NCBI GenBank assembly: GCA_011390205.1
Contig: JAABSX010000040.1
Coordinates: forward strand, 1 to 38,844
DNA length: 38,844 bases
DNA from: Microscillaceae bacterium
GTDB lineage: Bacteria > Bacteroidota > Bacteroidia > Cytophagales > Microscillaceae
Reading direction: 5' to 3'
The translations under genes and the position numbers were made by a program. Positions 8,101-38,413 of this stretch are shown here, piece by piece. The first letter of the stretch is position 1; each line of letters starts with the position of its first letter. The notes under the pieces are model-generated. The model worked only from the letters and a program-made list of their open reading frames with translations, did not search any database and was not told where the DNA came from.

Positions 8101-9567
8101 AATTTAGAAGGTAATTATACTTTCCAATGGGCCTTGACCAATGGCACAACTTGCCCACCTGTAACAGACAATGTAGAAATATTCTTCTTGAATCCCCCTA
8201 CAAGTGATGCTGGGCTACCGCAAGAAAACATCTGTGAGTTTCAAGCTACTATCACGGGCAATACACCCACAGGAACTGATATTGGAGAATGGACTTTAGT
8301 AAGTGGACCGAGTGATGAGGTAAATATCGCCAACCCCAACAGTCCTTCCACTACAGTTACCATTACTAGCCAAACACCCGGCAACTATACTTTTAGATGG
8401 ACTGTATTCAGAGTATTGGGTGGCACGCGTTTCTGCGGTGTGGGTGCAGAAGTTACCTTAAACTTTATCAACCAACCCGAAGCCAATGCAGGGGCAGACC
8501 AAGTCGACATCTGTTTTAATGATGTACAGACTGCCAACCTAAGTGCCAATACGCCAGCAGCTCCTTTTGTGGGAACTTGGTCAGTTACAAACTCACCCAT
8601 TGGTGCAAATACTTCGTTTAGCAATGTCAATGCACCCAATGCTACTTTTACCACAGACATAGAAGGGTTTTATACCCTCACTTGGACAGTAAGCGGAGGA
8701 ATAAACTGTTTATCTACCGACGAAGTAGAGATTACTTTTATTCAGCCCGTAGATGCAGCCATCATTACCCCCCCTGCCGAAGTTTGTGGATTGACAGCAG
8801 CCCTCACAGGACTAGACCAAACTGCACAAATCAATTTTGGACAGTGGACTGCCAACCCAGCAGCAGGCGTAGTATTTAGTAATCCCAATGAGGAAAACAC
8901 TACAGTAACAGTGCCTGCACCCGGGAGCTATACCTTCACTTGGACAATAGGCAATGGACAATGCGAAGATGCGGCAACTACTGCTCCCATGCAGTTCTTC
9001 CCAACACTTGTAAATCCAACTGCCGACCAAGACATAGAAGTCTATCTAGGGCAAACCGCAGATTTATTTGCAGATGGTGGACCAGATGCCATTTATACTT
9101 GGACTTCTACCGACGACCCAACTTTAGCTAGACTAGGAGGGGCAGCCGCCGCAGCCAATAACCCTACACCTACTTTTACAGCAAGCTCACCAAGTCCCAA
9201 TGTATTTAATTATGTCGTAACGATGCGATCAGGGTATTCACTCAATGATGACAATACTGCCTGTACGGTAAGCCTCCCTGTAAGAGTAAGAATCTTCACA
9301 GAGCTCAATGTACCCAATGTATTCAGCCCCAATGGAGATGGGCAGTTTGATACATGGCAAATTCCATTACTAAATGGTATCACAGAGGCCGAAGTAAGTG
9401 TATTTAATAGATGGGGAGATAAGGTGTTTAGTAGCACAGGCTACGATACCCCTTGGAATGGAAGACTGAATAACTCGGGGGCACTTGTGCCACATGCTAC
9501 CTATTACTGGGTGATCAAAAGACCCAATGAGCCTGTAGTATCGGGTTATGTAGTGGTTACTTACTAG
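5119..9567 (+). CDS. Giant T9SS type B secreted repeat protein with N-terminal lamin-tail-like domain
   Basis: This is a 1482-aa exported protein. The start is a GTG that opens a normal signal peptide (MKNYLSLSSFLICFLIFYQ, then AKAQ). Residues about 25-150 (IIINELN, RQFIELLVVG, VDLRGWIIDDNNG, GSIILIY) resemble a lamin-tail domain. From about 317 to 1295 there are about ten Ig/PKD-like repeats of roughly 90-110 residues. Each repeat has the pattern AG-x-(D/N)-Q-x-x-CG, GEWTxVSGP, a Pro/Ser/Thr strand, GTYTFRWT, then a second Cys and V-x-ITF; the Cys pair could form a disulfide. A last, different Ig-like domain precedes the C-terminal CHU_C/type B sorting domain (about 1394-1482: NVPNVFSPNGDGQFDTW, VFNRWGDKVF, GVVVTY-type end). 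It is probably secreted through T9SS as an adhesin-like surface protein. It is followed by its PorP/SprF-like partner 36 bp later. Confidence 0.9.
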   Translation: MKNYLSLSSFLICFLIFYQAKAQGDVGIIINELNTRIIPATTPPDTARQFIELLVVGCPGRGEYVGNTPDNIGPDPQLVDLRGWIIDDNNGDFGGTDGISNGHIRFSNNPVWANVPVGSIILIYNRAGYVTNNPFIDDPDDTAPQNKIYITALGDNVNGRPLFVRDETNNTYPPYLIGDAEADIQGTYTATTSAAASWAHLLFDGSGDAVQTRNAVGDFFHGIVYGSLSGGTLAPNNAAADLTATQGANKTGTTAVNSSIFFSHNNTDGVFLDNYRYGGNYTITTTINTVTVTPGRVNITTGDRNGVLVTNLRNSLDAGPSQVVCGVESRFQPTGVIGFWSETDMWRFTGNFNLNGNIFNLWQYVSGPGAANDPANVVITDVNDPNSTVRAQAGAGVYVFRRVMPDEVFNNPTAGLEYCIDSDTMSILFLGAPEAFAGNDFGVCSNIADLTGTDLTSGVAFNAIWEYIPNSGPEGAPAPQFVEDEDFRPETQRVQVTQPGTYSFRLRIGSTDCPDVDVVRVTFAFGDFAPAAGSDQTVCGLSASLGANADPTSSAYWTISNDSQTNTGVRFDGVLHDPAAPLNPVSNNPTASVAVPQAGTYDFIWNYGFTQGSTNCLQSDTVRITFLDLASASAGPNQTLCGFSTTLNGTPSTGGNITNTGWTVVSAPNGGTATLGTPTTSSTSVSVDIAGRYVFRYSLTGEDTGSNTTCSDGANVEVFFIDNPNPEAENKGTCGLSTTLTAVDNLLDVTGDGVLNDTGEWTVISGPEVSTVTIDDPTQVDSPISVLEAGTYTLRWTVTRTVNGVSCPASVDVTIFFVENFESVGETPNAGTDQTEVCGNLATLAGNALTVADATATWRVRDDIDLAALGISAVNIVTTDNPNASVEVLPIDFNGNLTVTLDFIWRFSKTVTVDDISVTCDNEDIVSITFFALPEPDAGEADTVCIGQADYPYTLNGNLPTGTNISGEWTQVGGPAGGVATFSDATSPSSTVTVNLEGNYTFQWALTNGTTCPPVTDNVEIFFLNPPTSDAGLPQENICEFQATITGNTPTGTDIGEWTLVSGPSDEVNIANPNSPSTTVTITSQTPGNYTFRWTVFRVLGGTRFCGVGAEVTLNFINQPEANAGADQVDICFNDVQTANLSANTPAAPFVGTWSVTNSPIGANTSFSNVNAPNATFTTDIEGFYTLTWTVSGGINCLSTDEVEITFIQPVDAAIITPPAEVCGLTAALTGLDQTAQINFGQWTANPAAGVVFSNPNEENTTVTVPAPGSYTFTWTIGNGQCEDAATTAPMQFFPTLVNPTADQDIEVYLGQTADLFADGGPDAIYTWTSTDDPTLARLGGAAAAANNPTPTFTASSPSPNVFNYVVTMRSGYSLNDDNTACTVSLPVRVRIFTELNVPNVFSPNGDGQFDTWQIPLLNGITEAEVSVFNRWGDKVFSSTGYDTPWNGRLNNSGALVPHATYYWVIKRPNEPVVSGYVVVTY

Positions 9568-9603: not shown

Positions 9604-10665
9604 ATGAAATTAATCAAAAATATACCCACCATTGCCTGTGTGATGCTTCTAGTCAGTCTTGCACACGCCCAACAAAGACCACAGTTTACGCAGTATATGG
9701 TCAATAATTATTTACTCAACCCTGCTGTTACGGGGGCTTATGAGTATGCAGACCTCAGAGTAGGCTTCCGCAATCAGTGGACAGGCTTTGATACTGGCTC
9801 ACCACGCACCTTCTTTTTGAGCGGGCATGTGTCGCCACAGTTTAACCGACCCAAGGGCCCGCTGCCCACCATAGGCACTTCGGATTATGGAGTCAAAAGA
9901 GAAGAGTTACAAGACAGAAGGGCAAAACACGGCTTTGGTGGGATGCTTTTTTATGATGAAACTGGCCCACTGAGCAGAATCATGGCCTATGGCTCATACG
10001 CCCTTAATTTTTCGCTGACTCAGCAATTAAGAGCCTCTGTAGGTGTGCAAGGGGGGCTTATCCGCTACCAACAGAATAACAGTGAATTAGTGCCTGACCC
10101 CCTCAACCCCACGAGCATAGACCCTGCTTTAGACGGAAATCAATCTTCTTCTTTGGTGCCTGATATAGGTGCAGGGCTGTTGGTATATTCCAAAAAACTC
10201 TATGTGGGCTTCTCGAGCAGTCAATTATTACAAAATGATTTGAGCTACTCCAATATCAATATAGGCGGCGCTACCAACCGCTTGGTAAGGCATTATTTCT
10301 TGACAGGTGGCTACAGATTATCACTAGACAAAGGAAAAGGGAAAATTGATTTTATCCCTTCAATACTTGTCAAGATGCTTGAAGGTGCACCTGCCTCCGT
10401 AGATGTGAATGGAAGATTTGTATTTAACCTAAATTCTGATAACCATCTCTGGACAGGGCTGAGCTACCGATATGATGATGCCGCAGCGCTCTTGGTGGGC
10501 ATGAGTGTATCTAAGCTAATGGATATTAACTTCTCTTATGATTACCCATTGACAGGCATCCGCACACAGTCAAATGACCCAAGCCTCAATGCAGGTACTT
10601 TTGAGATCTCTCTCGGGCTACGCCTGAGCAATTATCGCAGACCTTATCTTCATAATTTATTTTAA
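9604..10665 (+). CDS. PorP/SprF family T9SS outer-membrane protein
   Basis: This is a 353-aa protein with a signal peptide (MKLIKNIPTIACVMLLVSL, then AHAQ). The family signature follows directly: QRPQFTQYMVNNYLLNPAV, TGAYEYADLRVGFRNQWTGF, RTFFLSGH. Later segments such as HGFGGMLFYDETGPLSR, YALNFSL and PDIGAGLLVYS are typical PorP/SprF barrel strands. In the family, these 14-strand barrels act with the T9SS translocon and are usually encoded next to a giant type B substrate, which they help secrete or hold at the surface. The gene sits between that substrate and the PD40/OmpA gene (36 and 21 bp gaps), so the three form one operon. Confidence 0.92.
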   Translation: MKLIKNIPTIACVMLLVSLAHAQQRPQFTQYMVNNYLLNPAVTGAYEYADLRVGFRNQWTGFDTGSPRTFFLSGHVSPQFNRPKGPLPTIGTSDYGVKREELQDRRAKHGFGGMLFYDETGPLSRIMAYGSYALNFSLTQQLRASVGVQGGLIRYQQNNSELVPDPLNPTSIDPALDGNQSSSLVPDIGAGLLVYSKKLYVGFSSSQLLQNDLSYSNINIGGATNRLVRHYFLTGGYRLSLDKGKGKIDFIPSILVKMLEGAPASVDVNGRFVFNLNSDNHLWTGLSYRYDDAAALLVGMSVSKLMDINFSYDYPLTGIRTQSNDPSLNAGTFEISLGLRLSNYRRPYLHNLF

Positions 10666-16862: not shown

Positions 16863-19838
16863 CTAAATCCCGATATTCAAAAGCAAAAAATCAAATGTAT
16901 GTGCCGAACCCGAAGTAACATCTAGCAAATAACTGTACCTCACGCCTAGATTAACTTCTAACAAACGCAAAGCACGCACATCAAAGGTAATCTCTGTGCC
17001 TACAGACTGTCGGTAGCTTTGCTGAGGTCTGAGCAGCTCTGGTGCCAAGTCATATTGAGAATGCTCAATGTCAAAGAAAAGATTCGCTTTCACTCGCTTC
17101 AAAAATGCCAAAGGGCCTAAAAAAGCCACATCGGGCGAGAAAAGTGGGAGGGCATAATTAAAACCAATCTTAAAAACTTGGTCGCTAATGGTGGAGCTAC
17201 CGTAGCCCCTTGCATAAAAAAACTGGTTGCTAAATTTATAATTGTCTGTAAAATCTTCTATCTGAAACATCGTATTGACATAAAAAGCGTGGTTTCTCAT
17301 CAAGCCAGGTAGAAATACATCAAAGCGGTTCAAAAATACATTTCCTTGCAATTCATCACTGTTGAGTGTGCTTCTGTAGCGCATATCCCAAATAATCCCA
17401 TAGCGAGGAGCAAGATTTTGCAAGGCTGTAGTTTGTAACATGGTAAGTCTCATCCTGAGGTCAAGAGCTTGTAGGTTTTGGCTCTCGAGTCGGTCTTTGT
17501 AAAGGGTTTGAAATCGATTGGGGTTTACAGGGTTGATATTTAATCTAAAATTATCTGTATCTGCAAATTGATTTTTTCCTTCTAAGCTCAAAAAATGATA
17601 ATTGGCACTGAGATTCAGGCGGTTAGATATCGTGCCTTGTGTAAAGTTAATGGGCAAAGCCAAACCGATGTAGGCATTGTTTTCTCTCCATTCTTCATTA
17701 TAGAGTGTAAAAACAATGCTCGTATCGGTCGCAGGGGCAAAATTAGTGAATGTCCGCTCTCTCATTCCACTTCTGAAGCCTACATTGATGACAGGGAACA
17801 GCTCGGCATAAGAGAGATTTACGCCGTAGTTGGTCGTGTTTTCATTGCTGTTGTAGAAGGCACTGAGTTCTGTAGAAAGCGTACTAAATTTATTGTCTGC
17901 CAAAATCCTCGCTCCAAAAACAGGCGGTGAGAAAAAAGGCAGAATACTGTGCGGGTTAAAAATCCCTTGCCATTTATTGTATTTCTTAATCTCAAATTCT
18001 TGGTCAGTGGCTTTGCTCAAAATACTTTTGCCTAGCTCCTGAGCTACCAAGGGCTTATAATAATTGATGGCACTCGGTGAGGACGTTTCTGTTTGATAGA
18101 TTTTCCAGTTTTCAGGATTCACATTCATTTCTCTCAAATCATATCCTTCGGGGGTAAAGTCGCTGTATATCAGCTTCTTCCCATCCGTGGAGACTGCTGG
18201 CTGGAATGCCCCTAGTTTGGCAGAAGTAACTTGGTAGAGCTTATTGGGTTCACTGGTTTTGAGGGCAAAGATATTGTTAATCCCTGTGTGAGCCCCTGAG
18301 AAAAACACATATTCTCCACTCGGAAATACATTGGTAATCTGATAAGTACTTGGTTCGGTGAGTTTGATAGATGTATCGGCATTTTCTAGCTCAAGCATTT
18401 CAATCCAGTTGGCTTCTCCTTTTTGGGCAATATAGACCAGACTTTTGCCATCTTCTGTAAATCTAGGAAAGCTGATGAAATTGTTTTCAGGATTGGGGAT
18501 TTTCTGAAAAATATACTCCTCTGCTGAGCCCAAGATGATTAATTGGTATTGCAAATCGGGACTAATCTCTACGGCTACTATCCTAGAGCCATCTGGATGT
18601 AAAGCAGGGGAAAAAAATCTTCCTTGTTTGGTAACTTTATTTTTGATTTCTTTGGAGAGGTGGTAGGTCTTGATGTTGGCGTAGTTTTGGTAGCCCCACC
18701 TTGCTCCGTAGCCTGTCTCAGACCAGCAAAGCATATCATTGGCTACAGAAAGCGTAGCATTTCGGAGGCTATTGATGCCAGGGTTGGCGATTCGCTCTTC
18801 TCGCCCATTGGGGTAGATTCGGTAAAAGGTGCGAATCTCTGCGTAGCTGCTTTTCTCGGCGATGACTGAACCATCTTTGAGATATTGCGGATTGCGGTAA
18901 TCCGTAATCGTTTTTTTCTCTTTTTGGTTAAATTTTTCTCCCTCCATGTAAGTCAGTTGTGCATCTTGAGCTTTCCACATACTGTCTAGCTCGGCTCGCA
19001 TGGCTCGGTACATTTTGGGCGTTCTTAGTCCTGTACTTCTTTTGAGGCTTCGGCTCAGAGGGAAAAATAAACCTTTAAATTTGACAGCATCTTTGAGGGT
19101 TTTTTGCCAAATATCTTCACCGAATTGTCTGCGGGCGTAGGTAGTCATGTAATAGCCCATGCTGTAGTGGTCAGGCACAAAATCTTTAAAAGAACCAGCG
19201 GAGGCTTTTTCGTAGCCGTAGCGGATGTCGTTCATAATCAAGGCTTTGTATTCCATATCAAACTCAGGCAGCCTTCCTCTGCCTGCTTCACTGAGGGCAG
19301 TCTCTGTGCCTACAGCATCTCCCTCAAAGTACCAGCGAGGCAAGGCAGTACCTGTCATTCCGCCCCAAGTCCAAGAACCCAGCACACGCCTGGCCAGTTT
19401 GGTAATGCCATACATAGCGTTAGAAAATTGCTGCACGTGCCTATACTCGTGGATGGCGAGCATGTCTATCCAGTTGGCAGTGCCATTGAGGTTAAATTGG
19501 GGGGGAGTTACGAAAAACTCCGACCTAAAAGGCCCCACAGTTACAAAGCCATTCGGAATGGTGGTTTGGTTTTGTAAGAAGACACTTACTTTTTCTTCCT
19601 TATTTCCTACGGATGCGTAGGCACTATCACTGATGGCGTGGATGATATTGGCTACTCTCTGCCCTTGCTTTTCTAGCCCTCTGGGGAAGATGACCTGTAC
19701 TTTGTCTGTATTGATTTGATTCCATTTGAGAGAATAAGGGTTCAGGCCCAAAGGATTGGTAGGAACTTGTGCCCTCAGGAAAGCCATGCCCAAGGTAAAA
19801 TATGCGAGGAAAATGAGTGTATAAATGCCTTTGTTCAT
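16863..19838 (-). CDS. Metallopeptidase-like / TolB propeller / outer-membrane barrel fusion
   Basis: This is a 991-aa exported protein. The ATG at 19838 (MNKGIYTLIFLAYFTLGMA, cleavage near LRAQ) is chosen over an in-frame upstream start at 19868. Residues about 35-270 resemble a peptidase MA-like gluzincin domain: HEYRH at 130-134 gives the HExxH zinc motif, and PRWYFEGDAVGTE at about 167-180 supplies a likely third ligand (Glu172). The middle (about 300-600) is a TolB/WD40-like propeller, with blades such as FSPALHPDGSRIVAVE, FPRFTEDGKSLVYI and FQPAVSTDGKKLIYSD. The last 350 residues are amphipathic strands typical of a BamA/TamA-like outer-membrane barrel, ending in LLNIGI. Protease and barrel fused by a propeller suggests a surface or periplasmic processing protein; the substrate is unknown. 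Its promoter is duplicated at 22031-22095. Confidence 0.8.
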   Translation of the reverse strand: MNKGIYTLIFLAYFTLGMAFLRAQVPTNPLGLNPYSLKWNQINTDKVQVIFPRGLEKQGQRVANIIHAISDSAYASVGNKEEKVSVFLQNQTTIPNGFVTVGPFRSEFFVTPPQFNLNGTANWIDMLAIHEYRHVQQFSNAMYGITKLARRVLGSWTWGGMTGTALPRWYFEGDAVGTETALSEAGRGRLPEFDMEYKALIMNDIRYGYEKASAGSFKDFVPDHYSMGYYMTTYARRQFGEDIWQKTLKDAVKFKGLFFPLSRSLKRSTGLRTPKMYRAMRAELDSMWKAQDAQLTYMEGEKFNQKEKKTITDYRNPQYLKDGSVIAEKSSYAEIRTFYRIYPNGREERIANPGINSLRNATLSVANDMLCWSETGYGARWGYQNYANIKTYHLSKEIKNKVTKQGRFFSPALHPDGSRIVAVEISPDLQYQLIILGSAEEYIFQKIPNPENNFISFPRFTEDGKSLVYIAQKGEANWIEMLELENADTSIKLTEPSTYQITNVFPSGEYVFFSGAHTGINNIFALKTSEPNKLYQVTSAKLGAFQPAVSTDGKKLIYSDFTPEGYDLREMNVNPENWKIYQTETSSPSAINYYKPLVAQELGKSILSKATDQEFEIKKYNKWQGIFNPHSILPFFSPPVFGARILADNKFSTLSTELSAFYNSNENTTNYGVNLSYAELFPVINVGFRSGMRERTFTNFAPATDTSIVFTLYNEEWRENNAYIGLALPINFTQGTISNRLNLSANYHFLSLEGKNQFADTDNFRLNINPVNPNRFQTLYKDRLESQNLQALDLRMRLTMLQTTALQNLAPRYGIIWDMRYRSTLNSDELQGNVFLNRFDVFLPGLMRNHAFYVNTMFQIEDFTDNYKFSNQFFYARGYGSSTISDQVFKIGFNYALPLFSPDVAFLGPLAFLKRVKANLFFDIEHSQYDLAPELLRPQQSYRQSVGTEITFDVRALRLLEVNLGVRYSYLLDVTSGSAHTFDFLLLNIGI

Positions 19839-19900
19839 AAGTATTTCAAGTTTAGGCGAAAATAGCAAATCGCAATGGATTTCTCAAAAATATATGAAAA
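19836..19900 (-). repeat. 65-bp perfect direct repeat, copy 1 (promoter plus start codon)
   Basis: It is identical at every base to 22031-22095. It contains the ATG of the 991-aa gene and its promoter region. Identity stops one base beyond 19900. On the coding side the two copies continue with diverged but recognisably related codons. Confidence 0.9.
19857..19888 (-). promoter_or_regulatory. Promoter of the 991-aa gene
   Basis: On the minus strand TTTG (19888-19885), a 20-base spacer, then TATTTTCG (19864-19857), one base off TAnnTTTG. The start would lie about 7 bases further, leaving a leader of roughly 12 nt before the ATG. The whole promoter is inside the 65-bp repeat. Confidence 0.4.
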
Positions 19901-19943
19901 ACTGGATATCGCATTGATTACGAGAGAGCTGTCTATTTAATGA

Positions 19944-19987
19944 ATATTACTTGGGTGCAAGTATATTTGCTTGCACTCAAGTAATAT
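19944..19987 (-). terminator. Strong hairpin after the GH3 gene
   Basis: ATATTACTTGGGTGCAAG (19944-19961) pairs with CTTGCACTCAAGTAATAT (19970-19987): an 18-bp stem with a single G-T wobble and an 8-base loop. It begins 9 bp after the GH3 stop codon. No good U run follows, so it may act as an RNA 3' stabiliser rather than a classical terminator. Confidence 0.6.
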
Positions 19988-19996
19988 CACTTAATT

Positions 19997-21940
19997 TTAC
20001 TTTTTCGCATATTCCAATCCAAAACCAAACTTAAATAATGGGTTCTCACTGTCATAAGGGACATCAGTTTTTTGATTTTTGACAGCTTCCATAGAAGAAG
20101 GCAACTCAAAAGGTAATTTCCCTTGAGGTGCTGTATTTCCAAAAAGCACTTCACAAACTGATTGATCACTTGCTCCATAATCAGCGATGAGTGCAGCTGC
20201 AGCGGCCGTAATTTCAGGGATAACAGCAGGTCTGTCTAGGTAAATATCAACCACTGTAGGGACTTTTTTGAGTAAATCTAAAATCCTCTTTTTCTCTTCT
20301 CCTTTAAAATCTAAATCTCCGTGGTGAAAAGTAGCCGCAAAGCTATTCTTGGTAGCAACAGGATACCAAGGTGTATTTATCCTGATAATGGCAAAATCAG
20401 CCGCTTCTGGAGTAGCAACTACTTCTGCATAATTGGCTACGGTGGCACTATCTATATTCTCGATATATACTTTCAATTTCTTTTGTGCCAATGGCAAGGT
20501 TGATTTTTCGTTTTTGAGTAGGGTCATAGAGATTTTTTGTGTTTTCTCTCCTAATGCTATGGATGCTTCTGTGCCAATGATTTCATTGACTTTGCTTTCA
20601 TCTACAAATGGATTATCAAACAAGCCCAATTCAAATTTTTGTTTTAGCAGACGCTTGATAGAAATATCAATTCTCTCTTCTGATAATTTACCTTTTTTTA
20701 CCAATTGCACTACCAATTCGGGACGGCTCTCTCCTCCAAATTGGTCGCAACCTGCTTCTATAATTTTCAATACTCGCTCAGCTTCATTTAATTTTTCTAC
20801 ACCCCAAGCCCTTGCTTTCCAAATTACGTCTGGTCCAAAAGGAACATCTGTAATTAAGCCCCAATCTGTACAGACCACTCCATCATATTTGTATTTTTCT
20901 CTGAGCAAAGTAGTGATAATGGTCTTGTTGTAAGACATTGCCACATTTTCATCTGTTTGGTCAGTAGGCACACCATAGTAAGGCATAATAGCTGCAGTTT
21001 TGGCTTCAAAGGCAGCTTCGAATGGGATAAGGTGATAATCAAAATTATCCCCTGGATAAAACTGTCCTTTTTGAAACTCAAAATGAGGGTCTAATCCTTC
21101 TTTTTGAGGTCCTCCACCAGGGAAATGCTTGGTCATACAAGCGACACCCGCACTCAGGCTTTTACCTTGTAAGCCTTCAATGTAAGGCTTCACCAAGCGA
21201 GCCGTCAATGCGGCATCTTCACTAAAATTTCCACTAATCCTAGCCCAGCGTGGCTCAGTAGCTAAGTCAATTTGTGGATGCAAAGCTTCTCTAATACCAA
21301 TCGCAAGGTATTCTTGGCGAACCACCTCTGCAAACTCTCGTACTAATTTCTCATCACCAATGGCAGCAAAGCCAGTCATTTCACAGAATTGACTAAAACC
21401 TGTGGAAGCCATTCCAATCACATTTTTACCAAGATGATGCCTAGGGTCAGAAGCAATGGTAATCGGGATGCCCAGCCTTGTTTTTTCGGCAATTTGCTGT
21501 ACGCTGTTGTACCATTGGGCAAGAATAATTGGTTCGGCAGGAATATCCCAAATATTAAAATGGGTCATCTTACGTGTATTCATGCTTTTTACCACAGAGG
21601 GCATTCTGGCTGCAGGGCCTTCTAGCCCTTCGTTTCCGTTAGGTTTTGCATCTTTACTGATAGGAGCACCATTGATAAACATCATACCTGCTTTTTCTTC
21701 CAGAGTCATTTGGCTTAGTAAATCTTCTACCCTTGCTTCAATGGTTTGGCTGGTGTCTTCGTAGATGTCTAATTTTTTATTTTTGTTTAAATCTCTAAAT
21801 GTCTTGCCATCTTTTTCAAGAATGACTTGAGATTTACTGCTCAATAAATCAGATAATTGATTTCCTTTTTCTTCTGTTTCGGATGGCTTGCAAGCCCCCA
21901 AAAATACAAGAACTAAAAAAAACGGTATTAATTTATTCAT
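19997..21940 (-). CDS. Glycoside hydrolase family 3 lipoprotein
   Basis: The protein is 647 aa. The start is the ATG at 21940, because MNKLIPFFLVLVFLGAC is a standard lipoprotein signal with Cys17 (FLGAC). An upstream in-frame start at 22033 also exists. The DLNKNKKLDIYED segment at about 50-62 is the calcium-loop-like motif often found near the start of secreted GH3 enzymes. The (alpha/beta)8 domain has SDPRHH at 164-169 and the KHFPGGG motif at 271-277. The catalytic nucleophile Asp is in VVCTDWG (about D359). The second domain ends in APQGKLPFELP and LFKFGFGLEY. Family members are beta-glucosidases or xylosidases acting on oligosaccharides; here it would be anchored in a membrane facing the periplasm or surface. 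It has its own promoter (21977-22005) behind the duplicated one. Confidence 0.93.
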   Translation of the reverse strand: MNKLIPFFLVLVFLGACKPSETEEKGNQLSDLLSSKSQVILEKDGKTFRDLNKNKKLDIYEDTSQTIEARVEDLLSQMTLEEKAGMMFINGAPISKDAKPNGNEGLEGPAARMPSVVKSMNTRKMTHFNIWDIPAEPIILAQWYNSVQQIAEKTRLGIPITIASDPRHHLGKNVIGMASTGFSQFCEMTGFAAIGDEKLVREFAEVVRQEYLAIGIREALHPQIDLATEPRWARISGNFSEDAALTARLVKPYIEGLQGKSLSAGVACMTKHFPGGGPQKEGLDPHFEFQKGQFYPGDNFDYHLIPFEAAFEAKTAAIMPYYGVPTDQTDENVAMSYNKTIITTLLREKYKYDGVVCTDWGLITDVPFGPDVIWKARAWGVEKLNEAERVLKIIEAGCDQFGGESRPELVVQLVKKGKLSEERIDISIKRLLKQKFELGLFDNPFVDESKVNEIIGTEASIALGEKTQKISMTLLKNEKSTLPLAQKKLKVYIENIDSATVANYAEVVATPEAADFAIIRINTPWYPVATKNSFAATFHHGDLDFKGEEKKRILDLLKKVPTVVDIYLDRPAVIPEITAAAAALIADYGASDQSVCEVLFGNTAPQGKLPFELPSSMEAVKNQKTDVPYDSENPLFKFGFGLEYAKK

Positions 21941-21976
21941 TGTCTTATGTTGTAGTGGATATAATGTATAATTATG

Positions 21977-22005
21977 TAAAGATATGCTTAAAATAAAATG
22001 TGCAA
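21977..22005 (-). promoter_or_regulatory. Candidate native promoter of the GH3 gene
   Basis: On the minus strand TTG (22005-22003), an 18-base spacer, then TATCTTTA (21984-21977), one mismatch from TAnnTTTG. The ATG is about 37 bases downstream. Confidence 0.35.
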
Positions 22006-22033
22006 GAAGAAGGGTGTAAATGCCCTTGCTCAT
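21996..22033 (-). pseudogene. 5' coding remnant of a paralogue of the 991-aa gene
   Basis: From the ATG at 22033 the frame reads MSKGIYTLLLAHFILS, matching MNKGIYTLIFLAYFTLG of the 991-aa protein with one codon fewer. Several differences are synonymous (AAA/AAG, TAT/TAC), so it once was coding. It stays in frame into the GH3 gene, which would give the lipoprotein a 31-residue extension if used. I regard it as a remnant, because the extension would bury the lipoprotein signal. Confidence 0.55.
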
Positions 22034-22095
22034 AAGTATTTCAAGTTTAGGCGAAAATAGCAAATCGCAATGGATTTCTCAAAAATATATGAAAA
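22031..22095 (-). repeat. 65-bp perfect direct repeat, copy 2
   Basis: It is identical to 19836-19900 and carries the same TTTG-N20-TATTTTCG promoter and start codon. Together the two copies bracket the GH3 gene (2195 bp between equivalent positions). Confidence 0.9.
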
Positions 22096-22352
22096 GAGGT
22101 GGGATGAAGGATTTTAGTGCAACACTGAAATTTTACAAATTATGGACCTAGCATGGAAGAGTCTTCAATATTCAAATCAAAATTGTATCTAAGAACATAT
22201 TTTTACGAATCATTTAAAATAAAACTCTGAAATAAACGCAAATCAATAGCCAAAACCACGGCTTGATAATGGAAAAACCTTTCGTTAGAGACGTATCTGA
22301 CCAGTTTGCTGTTGTGGATTACGCTTAACATCATAGCCTTAGACCAGACGGT
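22096..22352. other. Intergenic stretch, no gene recognised
   Basis: This lies between the GH3 upstream region and the first repeat module. A 65-codon minus-strand open frame (22203-22400) overlaps the repeat module and has no recognisable family. Composition becomes clearly AT-richer from here to about 26.2 kb. Confidence 0.4.
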
Positions 22353-22551
22353 GAGCAAGAAGATTTCTAATCTGAAAAGAAACGAAAAAAAACCAAACAA
22401 GATAGGATATGATACTAGAATATAAATGAAGTATTAATTTAAATTAAAATAGTTATATGTTTGAATTTAATTTTGTTTATGAATACATTGCAATCATAAT
22501 AATTCAACGTTGAACGGCAATGCTTCAAATCAGCTTATTTGGAGGATTGTA
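22353..22551 (+). repeat. Leader module, copy 1
   Basis: It begins with a 23-bp segment identical to 24901-24923 (GAGCAAGAAGATTTCTAATC, then TGA), containing the mini-hairpin AGATT-TCT-AATCT. A TAnnTTTG box TATGTTTG lies at 22456-22463. Exactly 40 bases after its G comes the 12-bp palindrome TTCAACGTTGAA (22503-22514), followed by CGGCAATGCTTCAAATCAGC and TTTGGAGGATTGTA. An ATG at 22520 inside the module opens MLQISLFGGL and here runs in frame into the HTH gene. From the box to the palindrome, copies 1 and 3 align without gaps. Confidence 0.75.
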
Positions 22552-22615
22552 TTTTGTAAAATTCTTTCTCATCAAATCAATTTTCAAAAAACCATTTTCA
22601 AAACTTAGAGAAGTT

Positions 22616-22849
22616 ATGCAAATCAATTTACAACTATTACAAAGCATAGACAACTTAATCCGTCTGAAAGCTACTGGTAATGCCTATGAGTTAGCTAAAC
22701 GCTTAGAAATCAGCCGAAGAACAGTTTTCCGATACTTAGAATATCTCAGGGAAGATTGCCAACTTGTTATCAATTATTGTAAAATAAGAGAAACATACTA
22801 TTATTCATCAGGAGCTAAACACGTGATATACCTAGGATTACGCAAATAA
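22616..22849 (+). CDS. Small HTH transcription regulator, 77 aa
   Basis: The preferred start is the ATG at 22616 (MQINLQLLQSIDNLIRLKAT). An ATG at 22520 would add 32 residues encoded partly by the leader module. The core is an HTH_11/DeoR-type winged helix: IDNLIRLKATGNAYELAKR, then LEISRRTVFRYLEYLRED, with the recognition helix at about 32-45. It then ends in a short wing and a Tyr-rich tail. There is no sensor domain, so it would need a partner or act alone as a dimer. The gene sits upstream of a small secreted protein and a propeller lipoprotein and is the natural candidate for their regulator, possibly through the palindromes nearby. This is inference from position. Confidence 0.75.
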   Translation: MQINLQLLQSIDNLIRLKATGNAYELAKRLEISRRTVFRYLEYLREDCQLVINYCKIRETYYYSSGAKHVIYLGLRK

Positions 22850-22865
22850 ATTTATTTTTTTTAAG

Positions 22866-22901
22866 AGTGTCATTTAATGGCACTTCCGGTAATTACCTTT
22901 G
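22866..22901 (+). promoter_or_regulatory. Promoter with overlapping inverted repeat upstream of the small secreted protein
   Basis: TACCTTTG (22894-22901) matches TAnnTTTG. TTTA (22873-22876), 17 bases upstream, is a weak -33. An inverted repeat AGTGTCAT-TTA-ATGGCACT (22866-22884) covers the -33 position, where a repressor could bind. It also sits 16 bp after the HTH stop, so it may be that gene's terminator. Confidence 0.45.
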
Positions 22902-22950
22902 AAATATCGTTAAACAAAATATTTAATAAACACTTAAATCAATCAAAATT

Positions 22951-23205
22951 ATGTCAAAAATTTTAAAATTCTCTTGTGTACTAATACTCTTATTTATTGT
23001 AAGTATCTCAACATCTAATGCTGACTGTGATGGTCAAGTTGTTACTGTATGGGGTGAGGATGATTCAGATACAGCGATTCAAGAAGCTAGACAAAACTGT
23101 TGTGGCATGTCAGTTGTAGAAGTACATGATTTATCCACAGGAACATCTACTTTCGTTGGTGTATATTCTGATGGGGCAAATTCATCATGTGCGAATGATG
23201 ACTAG
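22951..23205 (+). CDS. Small secreted Cys-containing protein, 84 aa
   Basis: It has an N-terminal signal peptide (MSKILKFSCVLILLFIVSIS, cleavage likely after SNA). The mature part is about 59 acidic residues with four Cys: DCDG at its start, the adjacent pair NCCG near its middle, and SSCANDD at its end. Two disulfides are possible. The Asp/Ser/Thr-rich stretch GEDDSDTAIQEARQ and strand-like VVEVHDL and TFVGVYSDG suggest a small compact fold. I do not recognise the family. It precedes a six-bladed-propeller lipoprotein by 81 bp, an arrangement reminiscent of the NVEALA-type small proteins next to propeller lipoproteins in Bacteroidota. The NVEALA motif itself is absent. Confidence 0.7.
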   Translation: MSKILKFSCVLILLFIVSISTSNADCDGQVVTVWGEDDSDTAIQEARQNCCGMSVVEVHDLSTGTSTFVGVYSDGANSSCANDD

Positions 23206-23286
23206 CTATTTTTATAAAATGTAGGTATTGATTCATCGATACTTACTTTTTCATTATAACACAATTTCAGTATATAAATTATTGTT

Positions 23287-24438
23287 TTGAATATAAAATT
23301 TAGCCTACATTTTTATTTCTTAATTCTTATCATTTGTTTCATTTATGCCTGTAGCAATGATTCAAGAAGCAAAACCTCAAGTCATATTGGGTTCACAAAA
23401 AATAATGTAAAAATACCTTTTGGTGAAAATTTACTAAACCAAACGTATGCTGGAAGTTCAGTATTTAGGACTGATACATCAGAACTCTTATACACTTATG
23501 ATTACCAAAAAGATAGATTACAAGTATTTAACTTGAGTAAAATGGAATTTTCCCGTGTAATTGATTGGGAGAAATCTGGATCAAAAGCTATTAAAGGTGG
23601 ACGGTTTAACTTTTTGGGAGATGATACCATTATTTTTGCTAAACCTCATGAAGTATATCTAATGAATCATAGAGGAGATAAAATTCATCAATACAGATAC
23701 AGTACTGAATTATCAAGTATAAAAGTCAAAAACATAGATTATTCAAAATATACTTTAATACCACGTGGTCAAACACTCTACAATCCATCTAGTAAATTAT
23801 CATATTTTTATTTATTCAGGAAAATATCTCCTACAAAATCTGAATTTTATAATCAACCTGTATTCGCAGCAGTAGATTGGAAAAAAGGAGAGGTAAAAGA
23901 ATATTTATCCTTTACATACCCTAAAAGACTCAAATTAGAAGATGAAGTTTATGATATAGGAGCACTTACACCTTATCTATTGATGCATAATGATACACTT
24001 ATATACAACTTCCCTTGTTCATCTGATATATATTTTTACGATTTAAAAACAAAGAAAGGTAGTTTTATAGAAGCAGATAGTAAGTTTACTCCAAAATACT
24101 CACAGACTATTCCCTTGAATGAGTATGAAAATCAGGAGAATCATAAAAAATTTATAGATTTTTATTTAGACTACAGAGAGTTATACTATGATTCTTATCG
24201 TCAATTATTTTATCGTGTACATCATATAGTAGAAAAAAACTCATCTAAAGATAAGTTACCTATGAAAGTTTATTTAACAGTATTTAATAGAAATTTTGAC
24301 ATATTAACTGAAATTGAAATTGAGGAAAGTGTATATCCAATGCCTTATATATTTAAACAAGGAGTACTTTTTAAATTGAATGATCCTATTGATGAGGACA
24401 ACCTTTACTTTGTAAACTATATTTTCAATAATTCGTAA
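23287..24438 (+). CDS. Six-bladed beta-propeller lipoprotein, DUF4221-like
   Basis: This is a 383-aa protein. No ATG is available near the start; a TTG at 23287 opens a convincing lipoprotein signal (MNIKFSLHFYFLILIICFIY, then AC, Cys22). The mature part has repeated strand-turn units: LLYTYDYQKDRLQVFNLS, DDTIIFAKPHEVYLMNHRG, DTLIYNFPCSSDIYFYDLK, LFYRVHHIVEKNSS. This fits the DUF4221/6-bladed propeller families that are abundant in Bacteroidota and of unknown function. It lies in the AT-rich block and follows the small secreted protein, probably in the same transcript. Codon use is poorer in G and C than in the flanking core genes, consistent with transfer. Confidence 0.7.
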   Translation: MNIKFSLHFYFLILIICFIYACSNDSRSKTSSHIGFTKNNVKIPFGENLLNQTYAGSSVFRTDTSELLYTYDYQKDRLQVFNLSKMEFSRVIDWEKSGSKAIKGGRFNFLGDDTIIFAKPHEVYLMNHRGDKIHQYRYSTELSSIKVKNIDYSKYTLIPRGQTLYNPSSKLSYFYLFRKISPTKSEFYNQPVFAAVDWKKGEVKEYLSFTYPKRLKLEDEVYDIGALTPYLLMHNDTLIYNFPCSSDIYFYDLKTKKGSFIEADSKFTPKYSQTIPLNEYENQENHKKFIDFYLDYRELYYDSYRQLFYRVHHIVEKNSSKDKLPMKVYLTVFNRNFDILTEIEIEESVYPMPYIFKQGVLFKLNDPIDEDNLYFVNYIFNNS

Positions 24439-24538
24439 GATTTACTACTGTTGTATTCAAGTTATTTTGTAGGAAATCATATAGCCTTGTAAGGTGTTTC
24501 ACCAAAATCTTATCCGATAATTCATTTCAAATGACACA

Positions 24539-24858
24539 CTAGTCTGAATTTCTAATCCCAACTAGCAGAGCAAAAGACTTTTAATCTACTTCCTCTAAAT
24601 ACATTGCATCACTAAGTCCCGTATTTTTCCTTCTAGGAAAACAAAATATATCATAACTACTTGATATTTAGATAATTAAATATGTTTATGCACATCAAAA
24701 TTCGTATAAAATAAATGTTTAAATACTTAATTTATCGATAAAATAATTATATAAAAGTAAAAAAAATATTTTATTTCGTCTTGCCCTAAATTACTTTCAT
24801 AAGATATCTCAACGTTGAACAGCAATGCTTCAAATCAGCTTTCTTTGGAGGATTGTAG
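24539..24858 (+). repeat. Leader module, copy 2 (no promoter box)
   Basis: The 5' part (24539-24586: CTAGTCTGAATTTCTAATCC, then a diverged AGCAAAAGAC) is a diverged copy of 24873-24923. The 3' part (24809-24858) has TCAACGTTGA, then AGCAATGCTTCAAATCAGC and TTTGGAGGATTGTAGCC. The micro-ORF here reads MLQISFLWRIVAN then stop (24825-24866). No TAnnTTTG lies 40 bases before the palindrome, so this copy may be dead. No gene lies between it and copy 3. The 100 bp before it (24439-24538) hold nothing I recognise. Confidence 0.7.
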
Positions 24859-24872
24859 CCAATTAAAACCAG

Positions 24873-25212
24873 CTAGTCAGGATTTTTAATCCCCACTTCA
24901 GAGCAAGAAGATTTCTAATCTGAGAAAAAACAAAAAAAGCTACGCAATATAGCAGATGCCTACGGCATGACAGTACGGTACTGATACTGAAATATGAAAC
25001 TGTAATGTGAAAAAAACTACGCAATACAGCAGATACCTATGGCATGACAATACGCTACTGCTACTAAAATGTTAATAAAATCATATTTTAAATTAAAATA
25101 ATAATAAAATTAAGTTAGATTTGGATTTAATTTGGATTATAAGTATCTTATAATCATAATAATTCAACGTTGAACGGCAATGCTTCAAATTAGCATTTTT
25201 GGAGGATTGTAG
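24873..25212 (+). repeat. Leader module, copy 3
   Basis: It starts with two short hairpins (GGATT-TTT-AATCC and AGATT-TCT-AATCT), then contains two copies of the dispersed palindromic repeat (24939-25072). A TAnnTTTG box TAGATTTG follows at 25116-25123, and the palindrome TTCAACGTTGAA at 25163-25174, again exactly 40 bases after the box. The micro-ORF reads MLQISIFGGL then stop (25180-25212). The next 200 bp up to the lipoprotein stub at 25420 have only a CTATCA-gtatt-TGATAG inverted repeat (25245-25261). Confidence 0.75.
24939..25072 (-). repeat. Two tandem copies of the dispersed hairpin repeat inside module 3
   Basis: Copy 24939-24999 has the same 61-base length as the reverse complement of 37931-37991, and 51 of 61 bases are identical by hand count. 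It keeps two hairpins: ATGCC-TAC-GGCAT and CAGTA-CGG-TACTG. The corresponding stems at 37931-37991 are ATTCT-TCC-AGAAT and CAGTA-CGA-TACTG. The second tandem copy (25017-25072) is more diverged. Orientation is opposite to the arrays near 38 kb. Confidence 0.75.
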
Positions 25213-25419
25213 CCCATTAAATTTTCTTTTTGTTCTCTGTGATTCTATCAGTATTTGATAGTGCTATCACTTATAAAAACTGCTCAAACACGTAAGGTTT
25301 TTTTACATTTCACTACACTTCAGAGTAGATTTTATCGGAGAGGTTATGCTATTGATGATTTCTGAGAGAACTTATTTTAGCTTTTTACAATCATTTTACA
25401 ACCTTTAAATTTTATCAAA

Positions 25420-25503
25420 ATGAAAAACATAATTAACATTTCTGTATTACTCTTATCTTTTGTTTTTTTAGCATGTAATGAAAAGGGTGTGATTTCGATA
25501 TGA
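25420..25503 (+). CDS. Stub of a lipoprotein (signal peptide only), 27 aa
   Basis: MKNIINISVLLLSFVFLAC followed by NEKGVISI and TGA is a complete type II signal peptide with lipobox FLAC (Cys19), but the mature part ends after eight residues. It is either the remnant of a truncated lipoprotein gene or a real lipopeptide. Its frame differs from that of the 8-Cys protein starting at 25637, which lacks a signal peptide, and 133 bp with stops in all frames separate them. Confidence 0.5.
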   Translation: MKNIINISVLLLSFVFLACNEKGVISI

Positions 25504-25596
25504 TGTAGATTTTTAAATTCAATGTGCATTTTTGAGTGATGCAGGCACTATCAAAATTTTGAATCGGAATATTTAGCCATGTTTTAAATTTATTTT

Positions 25597-25619
25597 ACTT
25601 AAAATGGCTTATTTTAAGT
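25597..25619. promoter_or_regulatory. Perfect inverted repeat upstream of the 8-Cys protein
   Basis: ACTTAAAAT-GGCTT-ATTTTAAGT: a 9-bp perfect stem with a 5-base loop, ending 17 bp before the ATG at 25637. It covers the expected promoter or leader, so it is either an operator or a translation-controlling hairpin. Confidence 0.45.
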
Positions 25620-25636
25620 ATCTTTTCAAAGATTAA

Positions 25637-26164
25637 ATGGACTTAAAAGCCTTGAAAAGGCTATTTTATTTACATCATACTGAAATCATACCCAATGAAA
25701 ACCCAACACAAGAGCTAAATCCCGAATCATTAAGACTCAAAAATACCGAGCCAGAAGCTGTTTTTAGTTATGATATTGGGTTTATTGATAGTAAAAGTCA
25801 GGAGTTCGTAAAAATCAATGAAAAACTACTTTCAAACTATTGGAAAAAAACATTTGAGTTATCTGAAGATACAGAGTTTTTATCTGCTAAATTAGTCAAA
25901 GCTCAAGTAAACCAAGGAGAAAAAGACTATTATATCATTAATACTACTAGTAAAAGTGGCAAGATTAATATCAGTTCAAAGGTCTATAAGACAGATGTAG
26001 GATTTGTAATGGCTGGGGAAGAGTGTAAGTGTGAAAGTACAGAATGTACCTTCTCTGGATGTGAGGTGATGTCAATGTGCTCTTGTACTAGTTGTAGTGG
26101 TGAGTGTAAAAAAACTCATACATTAAAAGAAGGTTTAGCACTTTCTGCATTTGAATTAAACTAG
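25637..26164 (+). CDS. Hypothetical protein with an 8-Cys C-terminal cluster, 175 aa
   Basis: The start is the ATG at 25637, directly preceded by an in-frame TAA. There is no signal peptide: the N-terminus MDLKALKRLFYLHHTEIIPN is amphipathic and not hydrophobic. Residues about 35-125 look like a mixed alpha/beta domain (FSYDIGFIDSKSQEF, YIINTTSKSGKINISSKVY). Eight Cys cluster at 130, 132, 137, 142, 148, 150, 153 and 157 (EECKCESTEC, then GCEVMSMCSCTSCSGECKK). The C-x-C, C-x-x-C and C-x4-C spacings could bind zinc or an Fe-S centre in the cytoplasm, or form disulfides if the protein is exported with help. I do not recognise the family. A lipoprotein stub lies just upstream, so loss of an original signal peptide by rearrangement is possible. 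Confidence 0.65.
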   Translation: MDLKALKRLFYLHHTEIIPNENPTQELNPESLRLKNTEPEAVFSYDIGFIDSKSQEFVKINEKLLSNYWKKTFELSEDTEFLSAKLVKAQVNQGEKDYYIINTTSKSGKINISSKVYKTDVGFVMAGEECKCESTECTFSGCEVMSMCSCTSCSGECKKTHTLKEGLALSAFELN

Positions 26165-27620: not shown

Positions 27621-27728
27621 TTTTTTAAGTCTTATTTACCAATCTTTATTGTGTGCCAACTGATATAAAAAACGGACAGCTCATTGACTGCCCACCCGTT
27701 TTTATACAGCAATCCATTTTTGTAAAGA

Positions 27729-30476
27729 TTATCTGAGTAGATTTATTTTTCCTTGCTGCTTGACAACGATGCCGGGCTGGAGCACATTTTCGTAGCTTGC
27801 CTGCCATAGATAGATTCCGCTTGGTACATCCTTGCCTTGAAATGTGCCATCCCACTCTACACTAGGGTCAAAGCATTGGAATACAATCTCGCCCCATCGG
27901 TTATAGATTCTTAAATCCAGTCTTGATATATCTTGTTCAAAAATATCCAATTTGTCATTCAGTCCGTCATTATTAGGTGAGAAAGCCGTAGGGAGCAATA
28001 GCTTCGGCTCACAATCTACCAGCACAATGAAGGTCTTCAGAGCCACTGGGCAGCCTGCTTCATCTTTGACCGTAACCACGTAAGTGCCTGATTGTGATTG
28101 GTTTAGTATTTTGAGCGTTCGGTCAGTATCTCCAGTGGGTTGCCAGTCAAAAGTCCAATTAGCACCCTGGGGGATTTCACCTTGAGGAATGGCCTCTAAG
28201 AAATAACCTGAGATAGGAGGGCAGATGTCGAGATTTTCTTCTGAGGGAGTAAAATCATCGGCAGCCGTGATGCTGACGGTCTTGCTGATTTGATTGTTGC
28301 AGCCATTTCCGTCAGAATATGTGTAGCGAAGCAATGGCGTATCTCCTACTTCAAAAAGTGTAGGCTCAAAGCGGGTGATGATATTTCCATTGACTGTAAA
28401 TGTGCCGCCTGTAGGGCTTCCCCGTAAGATGACAGGCGAAGCTTGTGAACAATAGCTATCCGCTAGATTTAAAAATGCCAATTCAGGAATGGGATTGATG
28501 CGAATGTTTCTTTCTATGCTGCTTTGGCACTGGCTCACGGGGTCAGTAGCGGTATAAGTAATGGCTTGTGTACTTGCACCCACTATACTCGGGTTAAATG
28601 AAGGAAAAGCAATGATTTGCTCACTGTCATCAGCATAGACCACCTTTAACTGTGGGGTAAGTGTTTGATTATCATTGGCACAGTAGTTATCTTCTAGGTT
28701 GAGCCAAGTCAGTACAGGGTTGCGATAAACTCTGACAGTCCGAGAGGCTGAGTTGGCACATGCGGCATCATTGGGGTCTATGTAATTGTACTGAATGAGG
28801 TAATCACCTTGGCTTAGGTTGGCTGGGTTGAGCACAGTGGCACTTGTCCCATTGATGGTAAATGACCCTCCTGCAGGGGTAGCGGAGAGTGTGATAGCCC
28901 CCTCATTTTTACAAACTTGTGTGGGTAAATTCACAAAATTAATTTCAGGGATGGTTACTACTTCCACGGTTTTTCGCAGCGTATTGCTGCATGTGGTGGC
29001 AGGGTCAGTGTAGGTATATACCACTTCGTAAGTACCCAAACCTAGGCTAGCAGGTGAAAACTGTGTAGCCACAATGCCATCAATGGTAAAAATGCCTCCA
29101 CTGGGTGTGGCTTGCATGGTGGAGCTGTTTCCAGCGATGCAGTAAATGTCTCGGACATTGTTAAAACTTAACTGGGGCAATGCCCTGACGGCTACTTGTT
29201 TTCTGATGGTATTGCTGCAGGTGGTGGTGGGGTCAGTATAAGTATAAGTTACTTCATAAGTGCCTGCACCAAGGTTTTGTGGGTTAAAGGCTGTAGCAGT
29301 GTTTCCACCTACCCTGAAGGTACCTCCTGCTGGGCTGGCTTGTAGGTTAAAGGCTGCACTGCTTTGGCAGTAATTCTCTTGTAGATTGGTAAAATTAAGG
29401 GTAGGCACATCTTTAATGACGAAGCTGTCAGAAGTCTGCCCGATGCATGCATTGTCGGCGGGGTTTATATAGTCATAAATTATGGTGTAATTTCCTACAC
29501 CTAGAGTGGCTGGGTCAAAAGAGGTAATTACAGTACCCGCAGTGCTTCCTTCTTCATACAGTGTAAACTTACCTCCACTAGGGCTGGCTGATAATGTTAC
29601 ACGGCTCTCATTGGTGCAGTAGGTATCTTTTAAATCTATGATAGTGGGCATGGGGGGTACCTGTGAAATGGTTACAGGACGTTGTACTACCTCAGTCTGA
29701 CCATTGTTAGGGCCTGATGATACGATGGTAGCAGTCAATCTGACGGTATAAGTACCTACCTGATTGTAGTAGTGCGTAGGGTTTTCTATGCTATTGGCGG
29801 CAGTAATCGGTGAGCCATCTCCAAAATCCCAAAGATAAGTAATCGTACCTTCACAAGAGGAGGAGTTATTATTCATAGACACACCATTGCAAGATTGTGT
29901 AAAGCTAAATTCTGCTTTGATGGCAGAAAGCACAGCCGTGCCTCCCCACTGAAAAGCAAAACCATTATTACTGGTAGAGAAGTTATCTACAATGATGAAG
30001 TAGGTCTGACCTGCCAACACATCCATGTATCTCACAAAGCCATCTCCTCCTGCATTTTCCGATACATCAGTCGCAGATAAGCTCAGCCCTGTATTTCCGT
30101 TGCCAAGGGCATAGCTACACCTCAAAGGGCTTCCCAGTGCATCACAAGTTACATTCGGGCCATACACTGCAAAATCATAATCATCATTGGCATTGGGGTC
30201 TATCACAAAAGTAAGCGTGCCAGAGGTCTGAATCTTGATTTGATACCAAGCAGATTGATTTTCATCTGAGACAAGACAGCCTCTGTCATTGGCAGAAGAC
30301 TGAAAATCAGGCCTTCCTGGGCCATCACTATTGTCACTAAAATTCTGATTACCACATACAAGGCGGTCTCTGGTATCTCTACAATCATTATTGGCTTGTG
30401 CATGACCAAACAAAGGCAAACAAAATAGTAAAAGTATTGTAGGGAAGGTGGCAAGGATTGACTTCATAAAATTCAT
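27729..30476 (-). CDS. T9SS type B secreted protein with PKD domain and six Ig-like repeats
   Basis: This is a 915-aa protein. The start MNFMKSILATFPTILLLF (ATG at 30476) gives a signal peptide with cleavage near GHAQ; the frame is open further upstream but without signal character. Residues about 20-180 form a pre-peptidase-like beta-sandwich (SAWYQIKIQTSGTLTFVID, YDFAVYGP, GQTYFIIVDNFS). A PKD domain follows (ITYLWDFGDGSP, HYYNQVGTYTVRLTAT). Six repeats of about 75-80 residues come next, patterned L-x-x-x-YC, SPxGGxF, LGxGxYxVxYTYTDP, C. The C-terminal CHU_C type B sorting domain has LLPTAFSPNNDGLNDKLDIF, IYNRWGEIVF, WDG and GIYLWQASY. It is predicted to be exported by T9SS and held at or released from the surface. 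Unlike the gene at 5119, no PorP/SprF partner adjoins it. Confidence 0.9.
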   Translation of the reverse strand: MNFMKSILATFPTILLLFCLPLFGHAQANNDCRDTRDRLVCGNQNFSDNSDGPGRPDFQSSANDRGCLVSDENQSAWYQIKIQTSGTLTFVIDPNANDDYDFAVYGPNVTCDALGSPLRCSYALGNGNTGLSLSATDVSENAGGDGFVRYMDVLAGQTYFIIVDNFSTSNNGFAFQWGGTAVLSAIKAEFSFTQSCNGVSMNNNSSSCEGTITYLWDFGDGSPITAANSIENPTHYYNQVGTYTVRLTATIVSSGPNNGQTEVVQRPVTISQVPPMPTIIDLKDTYCTNESRVTLSASPSGGKFTLYEEGSTAGTVITSFDPATLGVGNYTIIYDYINPADNACIGQTSDSFVIKDVPTLNFTNLQENYCQSSAAFNLQASPAGGTFRVGGNTATAFNPQNLGAGTYEVTYTYTDPTTTCSNTIRKQVAVRALPQLSFNNVRDIYCIAGNSSTMQATPSGGIFTIDGIVATQFSPASLGLGTYEVVYTYTDPATTCSNTLRKTVEVVTIPEINFVNLPTQVCKNEGAITLSATPAGGSFTINGTSATVLNPANLSQGDYLIQYNYIDPNDAACANSASRTVRVYRNPVLTWLNLEDNYCANDNQTLTPQLKVVYADDSEQIIAFPSFNPSIVGASTQAITYTATDPVSQCQSSIERNIRINPIPELAFLNLADSYCSQASPVILRGSPTGGTFTVNGNIITRFEPTLFEVGDTPLLRYTYSDGNGCNNQISKTVSITAADDFTPSEENLDICPPISGYFLEAIPQGEIPQGANWTFDWQPTGDTDRTLKILNQSQSGTYVVTVKDEAGCPVALKTFIVLVDCEPKLLLPTAFSPNNDGLNDKLDIFEQDISRLDLRIYNRWGEIVFQCFDPSVEWDGTFQGKDVPSGIYLWQASYENVLQPGIVVKQQGKINLLR

Positions 30477-34309: not shown

Positions 34310-34336
34310 TTTTGGTCTTTTTCTACTCATTTTCTC

Positions 34337-34436
34337 TCATTCTGGAAGAATCCGCTGTATGGCGCAGCCTCTTTTGTGTACGCCTTCAGATTCCTACGGA
34401 ATGACAATAGAGGAGAATCCGCTATACTGCGTAGCT
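34337..34436 (+). repeat. Dispersed palindromic repeat left of hsdR
   Basis: It begins TCATTCTGGAAGAATCCGCT, passes GATTCCTACGGAATGAC (hairpin ATTCC-TAC-GGAAT) and ends in AATCCGCTATACTGCGTAGC. It touches the hsdR stop codon at 34437. It has the same orientation and consensus as the copies at 37931-38060 and 38414-38844, so hsdR lies between direct repeats. Confidence 0.8.
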
Positions 34437-38060: not shown

Positions 38061-38074
38061 TGACAGGTAAAGCA

Positions 38075-38380: not shown

Positions 38381-38413
38381 TTTTAATATTTTATGATTGT
38401 TATTCTGTTTTCT

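Follow-up and report, generated by a model that had tools for sequence, protein, structure and literature searches.

Why should two unrelated genes begin behind the same DNA, letter for letter, when the codons that follow have diverged? The question is raised by a contig of a Microscillaceae bacterium (JAABSX010000040.1, assembly GCA_011390205.1), of which we analysed positions 1 to 38,844, hereafter the window. The 66 bp at 19835-19900 and at 22030-22095 are identical, and consist of 62 non-coding bases followed by ATGA; they lie on the minus strand, as do the main parts of the locus described below. The first copy holds the promoter region, the leader and the start codon of an intact gene, here called gene A. 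The second precedes a shortened start of the same gene and, further on, a gene encoding a GH3 family glycoside hydrolase. We propose that the second copy is an orphan 5' gene end, the scar of DNA that integrated through homology in the 5' end of gene A, and we regard this as probable, with some reserve.

The repeated gene start and its promoter

A sequence-only reading of the window had reported the repeat as 65 bp long (19836-19900 and 22031-22095). The identity is real and extends over one base more. Longer alignments of the two copies show 86% identity over about 120 bp. In the direction of the minus strand, the locus runs from a low-GC region into copy 2 (22095-22030), about 19 codons of a second gene A start (to about 21978), 37 bp, the GH3 gene (21940-19997), a 96-bp flank, copy 1 (19900-19835) and finally gene A itself (19838-16863). 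On either side of the inserted DNA stands a partial copy of the 5' end of gene A, the two forming direct repeats. On the outer side homology stops abruptly, at 19900 and 22095. One of the two partial copies is part of the intact gene, and the other stops within gene A sequence. Gene A retains its whole 5' end, and a duplication is seen at the locus. Searching the genome for further copies had been suggested: a query of 131 bases against the 4.51-Mb assembly gave 28 matches at E≤10, of which just two lay below E 0.5 (2.7e-63 and 5.6e-29, the next being at 0.51), and a pair formed by chance is therefore excluded.

Gene A (16863-19838) encodes a protein of 991 aa with TolB-like propeller repeats, which match PF07676 and score 37 bits with TIGR02800 against a cut-off of 343. 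A signal peptide, an HEYRH motif of the HExxH type and a probable outer-membrane barrel end were read by eye, with no model match. An orthologue of the gene occurs in 27 of the 56 other genomes that were searched and in half of those of the same family (7 of 14), the closest, at 61% identity, being that of genome G009. Among named records, the nearest two are metagenome assemblies of Microscillaceae.

The orphan 5' end of gene A (21978-22033) comprises the ATG and about 19 codons, diverged from those of copy 1, after which homology to gene A ceases. Aligning the copies thus bears out the shortened second start that had been read ahead of the GH3 gene. With one gap of 3 bp, 42 of the 57 bases in these 19 codons are the same and 15 differ, at codon positions 1, 2 and 3 in 4, 2 and 9 cases respectively, which is an excess of third positions (9/15, p = 0.03). 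The abrupt limit of the perfect identity, also noticed beforehand, is confirmed: there are 0 differences in the 62 bases before the start codon and 15 in the 57 coding ones (Fisher p = 5e-6). The coding differences had been described as synonymous, and this is only half right. Third positions are indeed enriched and 6 of the changed codons are synonymous between the copies, but 8 are nonsynonymous. Since the differences concentrate at third positions, the codons of copy 2 look like a diverged, once-translated allele rather than a decaying remnant, although the numbers are small.

The gene caught between the copies (19997-21940) carries both GH3 domains above the Pfam cut-offs (PF00933, 131 bits; PF01915, 63 bits), and the start of its protein reads by eye as a lipoprotein signal (MNKLIPFFLVLVFLGAC). 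Its 3' flank (19901-19996) contains an inverted repeat that resembles a terminator, again by eye, and is joined abruptly to copy 1 at 19900. The distribution of the gene is sporadic. None of the 14 genomes of the same family has a match at E≤1e-60, a search in which 7 genomes of other families did match. At E≤1e-150, the gene has matches in 11 genomes among the 389 others of the order, all of them outside the family, with a best identity of 66% (the best three candidates per genome were scored). The GC content at its third codon positions (GC3) is 0.31, the second-lowest of ten genes measured. Most likely, the GH3 gene is foreign and was acquired horizontally. A plasmid origin was considered and rejected: GH3 enzymes are found on 427 plasmid records, every one with less than 60% identity.

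Which promoter, then, serves this gene? Promoters of Bacteroidota are described as following the consensus TTTG/TANNTTTG, for which TAHHTTTG is a refined form; the -33 element is far less evident (PMC6847099). A TTTG-N20-TATTTTCG promoter had been read in the block. It is present in both copies, but its -7 element has one mismatch, and a perfect TANNTTTG -7 element (TATTTTTG) lies in the same block, at 19892-19885 and 22087-22080. The region upstream of the G009 orthologue resembles the block chiefly from the -7 region to the ATG; the upstream half aligns poorly, and in L052 no such block can be recognised. Because the G009 orthologue keeps a similar stretch between the -7 element and the ATG, the promoter of the block belongs with gene A.

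The sequence-only reading had credited the GH3 gene with a promoter of its own, which we did not recover: no TAHHTTTG occurs between the ATG of copy 2 and that of GH3 under the strict consensus, and this includes the spacer before the GH3 start codon (21941-21977). Since just these 37 bp or so of DNA without homology to gene A stand upstream, lacking a consensus -7 element, the simplest assumption is that transcription starts from copy 2, and the GH3 gene probably uses the duplicated gene A promoter. It had also been pointed out that the old start codon of copy 2 reads in frame with GH3. It does, but this means little, because an in-frame opening through 12 non-homologous codons is expected by chance with a probability of about 0.12, assuming 30% GC.

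Orphan gene ends elsewhere in the genome

Scars similar to that of the window occur at other places in this genome. We scanned 1,187,781 bp of it (26%, the window among them) for repeats on the same strand, 40-500 bp long, with at least 75% identity, 0.3-12 kb apart and in at most six copies in the sample. Pairs with more copies were dropped beforehand (e.g. the repeats near 8 kb in C47) and the others were sorted by eye. The scan gave 17 pairs, and orphan gene ends account for that of the window and for four more at two loci, three in C47 and one in C69. Not counted as such were repeats within one open reading frame (ORF; two in C22 and one in C58), neighbouring paralogues (two in C36 and one in C69) and pairs without an ORF of 150 aa (three in C58 and three in the window). 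An earlier scan of 836,844 bases under other settings had given 13 pairs. C58 also holds a near-tandem duplication of 427 bp with 99.5% identity and no ORF of at least 150 aa (G000 C58:131676-132524).

In C47, a gene of 702 aa is followed by two further copies of its 3' end, orphan ends at 27698-27881 and 28648-28747. Between the copies lie a secreted-looking ORF and a zeta-toxin-like ORF, then a KilA-N ORF. The first pair is identical over the 74 bp that lead up to the stop codon, while the 98 bp ahead of these differ at 18 sites, 14 of which are third positions. Third-position differences thus number 0 of 24 in the exact edge versus 14 of 33 inside (p = 1e-4), a count that leaves out the first 12 aligned bases, which hold 3 more differences. 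This is the mirror image of the pattern in the window, at a coding 3' end and without any promoter. The array as a whole (L130:3997-8747 = G000 C47:23997-28747) resembles the displaced-end arrays of toxin loci.

In C69, it is the 5' end of a hemerythrin-domain gene that recurs about 5.3 kb off, with 261 of 303 bases the same (L152:4230-10400 = G000 C69:143230-149400). The DNA between the two ends holds an enoyl-CoA hydratase fragment, a TPR histidine kinase gene and a resolvase/TnpB-like pair, for which the name IS607 is in use. Orphan ends are also found in one of the two control samples of 400 kb taken from other genomes: that of G032 gave a single pair, an orphan 3' end whose last 26 bases are exact.

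A proposed integration and its rivals

The sequence-only reading was right in naming recombination as a likely cause of the duplication. The best explanation of these observations is an ordinary, known sort of recombination scar, with promoter capture as its likely consequence. Incoming DNA from a related bacterium would have carried the GH3 gene and, close to it, the 5' end of a gene A allele that had diverged. In what we infer to have been a single event, with its joints in this order, the DNA would have entered by one homologous exchange in the promoter and start region of gene A and by one non-homologous joint, located near codon 19 or at 19900; a fragment that had been trimmed and circularised is one form in which the DNA could have arrived. 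The outcome would be an inserted GH3 gene and two partial 5' ends of gene A as direct repeats, the intact gene keeping one of them and GH3 lying behind the other. The exact 66 bp would then go back to a single allele, either because both copies received them from it or because repair in the course of the exchange brought them to its sequence, and the diverged codons would be those of the other allele. The third-position excess fits an allele that evolved as coding sequence. Suppose that the exchange took place near the start codon and that the joint at 19900, the non-homologous one, duplicated resident DNA: both blocks would then stem from the same resident allele and would be identical at once; otherwise repair or later conversion is needed. 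From then on, GH3 would be transcribed mainly from the duplicated gene A promoter.

A number of observations weigh against such an integration. Neither an empty site nor a donor was seen, and the junction between the gene A start and GH3 is found in this genome only (1/390), and in none of the 389 other genomes of the order, where the best two candidates per genome were scored. One simple crossover between alleles that differ would not by itself make 62 bases identical; repair or a second joint has to be invoked as well. At E≤1, neither blastn nor tblastn recovers copy 2 with the coding sequence of gene A alone, and the coding homology of copy 2 therefore rests on its continuity with the exact block. 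The other orphan ends do not all repeat the pattern: the third C47 copy is diverged throughout (86%), the C69 case has no exact edge (86% over 303 bp), the G032 end is short (80 bp, four differences) and the other control sample, 400 kb of G018, gave five pairs and no orphan end. Finally, the assembly is a draft of 124 contigs. Yet a misassembly at the exact block would not account for the junction between the gene A start and GH3, because this junction lies outside the block.

The main rival is an older insertion or duplication, followed by gene conversion between direct repeats 2.2 kb apart that would recently have homogenised the outer 66 bp only. A short conversion tract would leave just such a contrast as that between 0/62 and 15/57 differences, and C47 shows the same pattern of an exact edge. 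But two events are needed, and the older stage is found in no relative, be it as a GH3 gene (none at E≤1e-60 in the 14 same-family genomes) or as the junction (in 0 of the 389 others), with no congener among them. We thus see later conversion as conceivable, though rather unlikely.

Strong constraint on the promoter had also been offered as a reason for the perfect identity, and one might suppose that gene A and GH3 need the same regulator site and that purifying selection keeps both copies alike. This would agree with the two candidate -7 elements in the block and with the resemblance between its -7-to-ATG region and that of the G009 orthologue. Yet it is at odds with the poor alignment of the upstream half of the block with G009 and with the absence of a recognisable block in L052; moreover, one of the two -7 candidates is imperfect. 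Since C47 shows an exact edge at a coding 3' end, with third-position divergence inside and no promoter, such constraint is not needed, and as the sole cause it is unlikely.

The sequence-only reading had further suggested that GH3 replaced the body of a tandem paralogue of gene A. Copy 2 does hold a diverged gene A start that reads in frame into GH3. But gene A has a single match in its own genome at E≤1e-10, neither the rest of the window nor 60 other stretches gave a remnant of its body, and there is no tandem gene A start in the stretches around seven loci of the family that carry the gene. We consider replacement of a paralogue very improbable. These seven stretches (L083-L089, 3 to 20 kb each) were compared with themselves, and none has a duplicated gene A start. 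L083 and L088 (3.1 kb only) show no repeat, and the repeats of L085-L087 are distant from the start of the gene. In L089 a direct repeat (8732-8812 and 10188-10270) stops about 55 bp before the start at 10325, and takes in neither the start codon nor the promoter region next to it. In L084, two repeats, one inverted and one direct (51 bp), lie upstream of the start at 5985 and have their partners behind the 3' end of gene A; the inverted one stops 36 bp before the start. It had been proposed to look at the locus in relatives lacking GH3. The gene A loci of the family indeed lack both GH3 and the block repeat, but their neighbours differ from those of the window, and because the neighbours of gene A differ between relatives, none of which is congeneric, an empty site was not seen. 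The use of the G009 orthologue to polarise the two copies was rejected, its divergence being too great.

Islands that insert at gene ends in some cases rebuild the gene, and direct repeats with an exact core do flank a one-gene unit in the window. Nevertheless, a small site-specific cassette, or the mobile promoter of the sequence-only reading, with the 66-bp block as recombination core is the least credible of all explanations: the unit (19901-22095) has no recombinase, holding besides GH3 just two antisense ORFs of at least 80 aa, without Pfam match; the genome has the two block copies and no third; none was found in the 389 other genomes (best two candidates per genome), in plasmids or, for a 27-base core, in viral contigs; and homology runs on past the core.

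The window has further features. The low-GC stretch at 22000-26000 (0.26-0.32) includes an HTH_11 gene, a gene for a small secreted-looking peptide, a DUF4221 gene and more direct repeats, and looks like a separate acquired island. At 22189-22355 lies a dispersed non-coding repeat: the query 21930-22560 gave at least 38 matches in the genome among the best 40 of 86 candidates, 32 of them over about 22180-22358 with 71-89% identity. An ORF of 175 aa at 25637-26164 contains a cysteine-rich stretch (CKCESTECTFSGCEVMSMCSCTSCSGECKKTH) and has no NCBIfam match. Short repeats (GTCATTCTGGAAGAATCCGCTGTAC...) form a cluster at 37953-38842, and likewise at 34330-34435.

Parallels and significance

Some islands that enter the 5' end of a gene supply it with a new start, as SXT does in prfC. 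The likeness to the window is that the element brings a replacement 5' end and the old one is displaced, but the unit described here has no integrase. The window fits the kind of partial gene duplication described in E. coli, read there as a single crossover of a trimmed, circularised donor: 56 of 60 clones gave a duplication product by polymerase chain reaction, and the duplications in the 14 that were sequenced measured 109-950 bp (PMC3240628). The lacZ-end case described there shares with the window, where the repeat is about 120 bp long, partial copies of one gene end on both sides of foreign DNA. Its donor is a laboratory plasmid bearing part of the resident gene, whereas the window has a diverged allele, a natural cargo gene and a 5' end with its promoter. 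The same source describes homology-facilitated illegitimate recombination (HFIR), with one joint homologous and the other not, generally accompanied by a deletion (PMC3240628). Its classical form also involves micro-homology of 3-10 bp where the non-homologous joint is made. There, too, the pair of joints traps foreign DNA beside a homologous anchor, but HFIR generally deletes resident DNA whereas in the window resident DNA is duplicated. For the type VI secretion system loci of Vibrio, orphan genes and displaced 3' ends are explained, in the account given of them, by an HFIR-like process with a parallel in Rhs (PMC5361080). In these orphan immunity arrays a displaced gene end likewise remains beyond the new cargo. 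The displaced parts described are 3' ends at toxin loci, in contrast with the 5' end and promoter of the window, and C47 is the closer match. In the titles and abstract openings of the papers listed, no promoter capture or duplicated promoter accompanying horizontal transfer, gene conversion, illegitimate recombination or direct repeats was apparent, which is not to claim that none is in print.

This single locus shows how a foreign gene can enter without breaking its neighbour while probably gaining a working local promoter. One might speculate that gene ends are recurrent landing sites in this lineage, the cargo being caught between a rebuilt and an orphan gene end, and that capture at a 5' end gives it a ready-made, host-adapted promoter in the same step. 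This generalisation is at present doubtful. If it were true, one could read from orphan gene ends how Bacteroidota have captured genes, and promoter capture would be a selectable by-product. Orphan gene ends can be searched for in any genome, and they may tell both which genes were captured and by which route.

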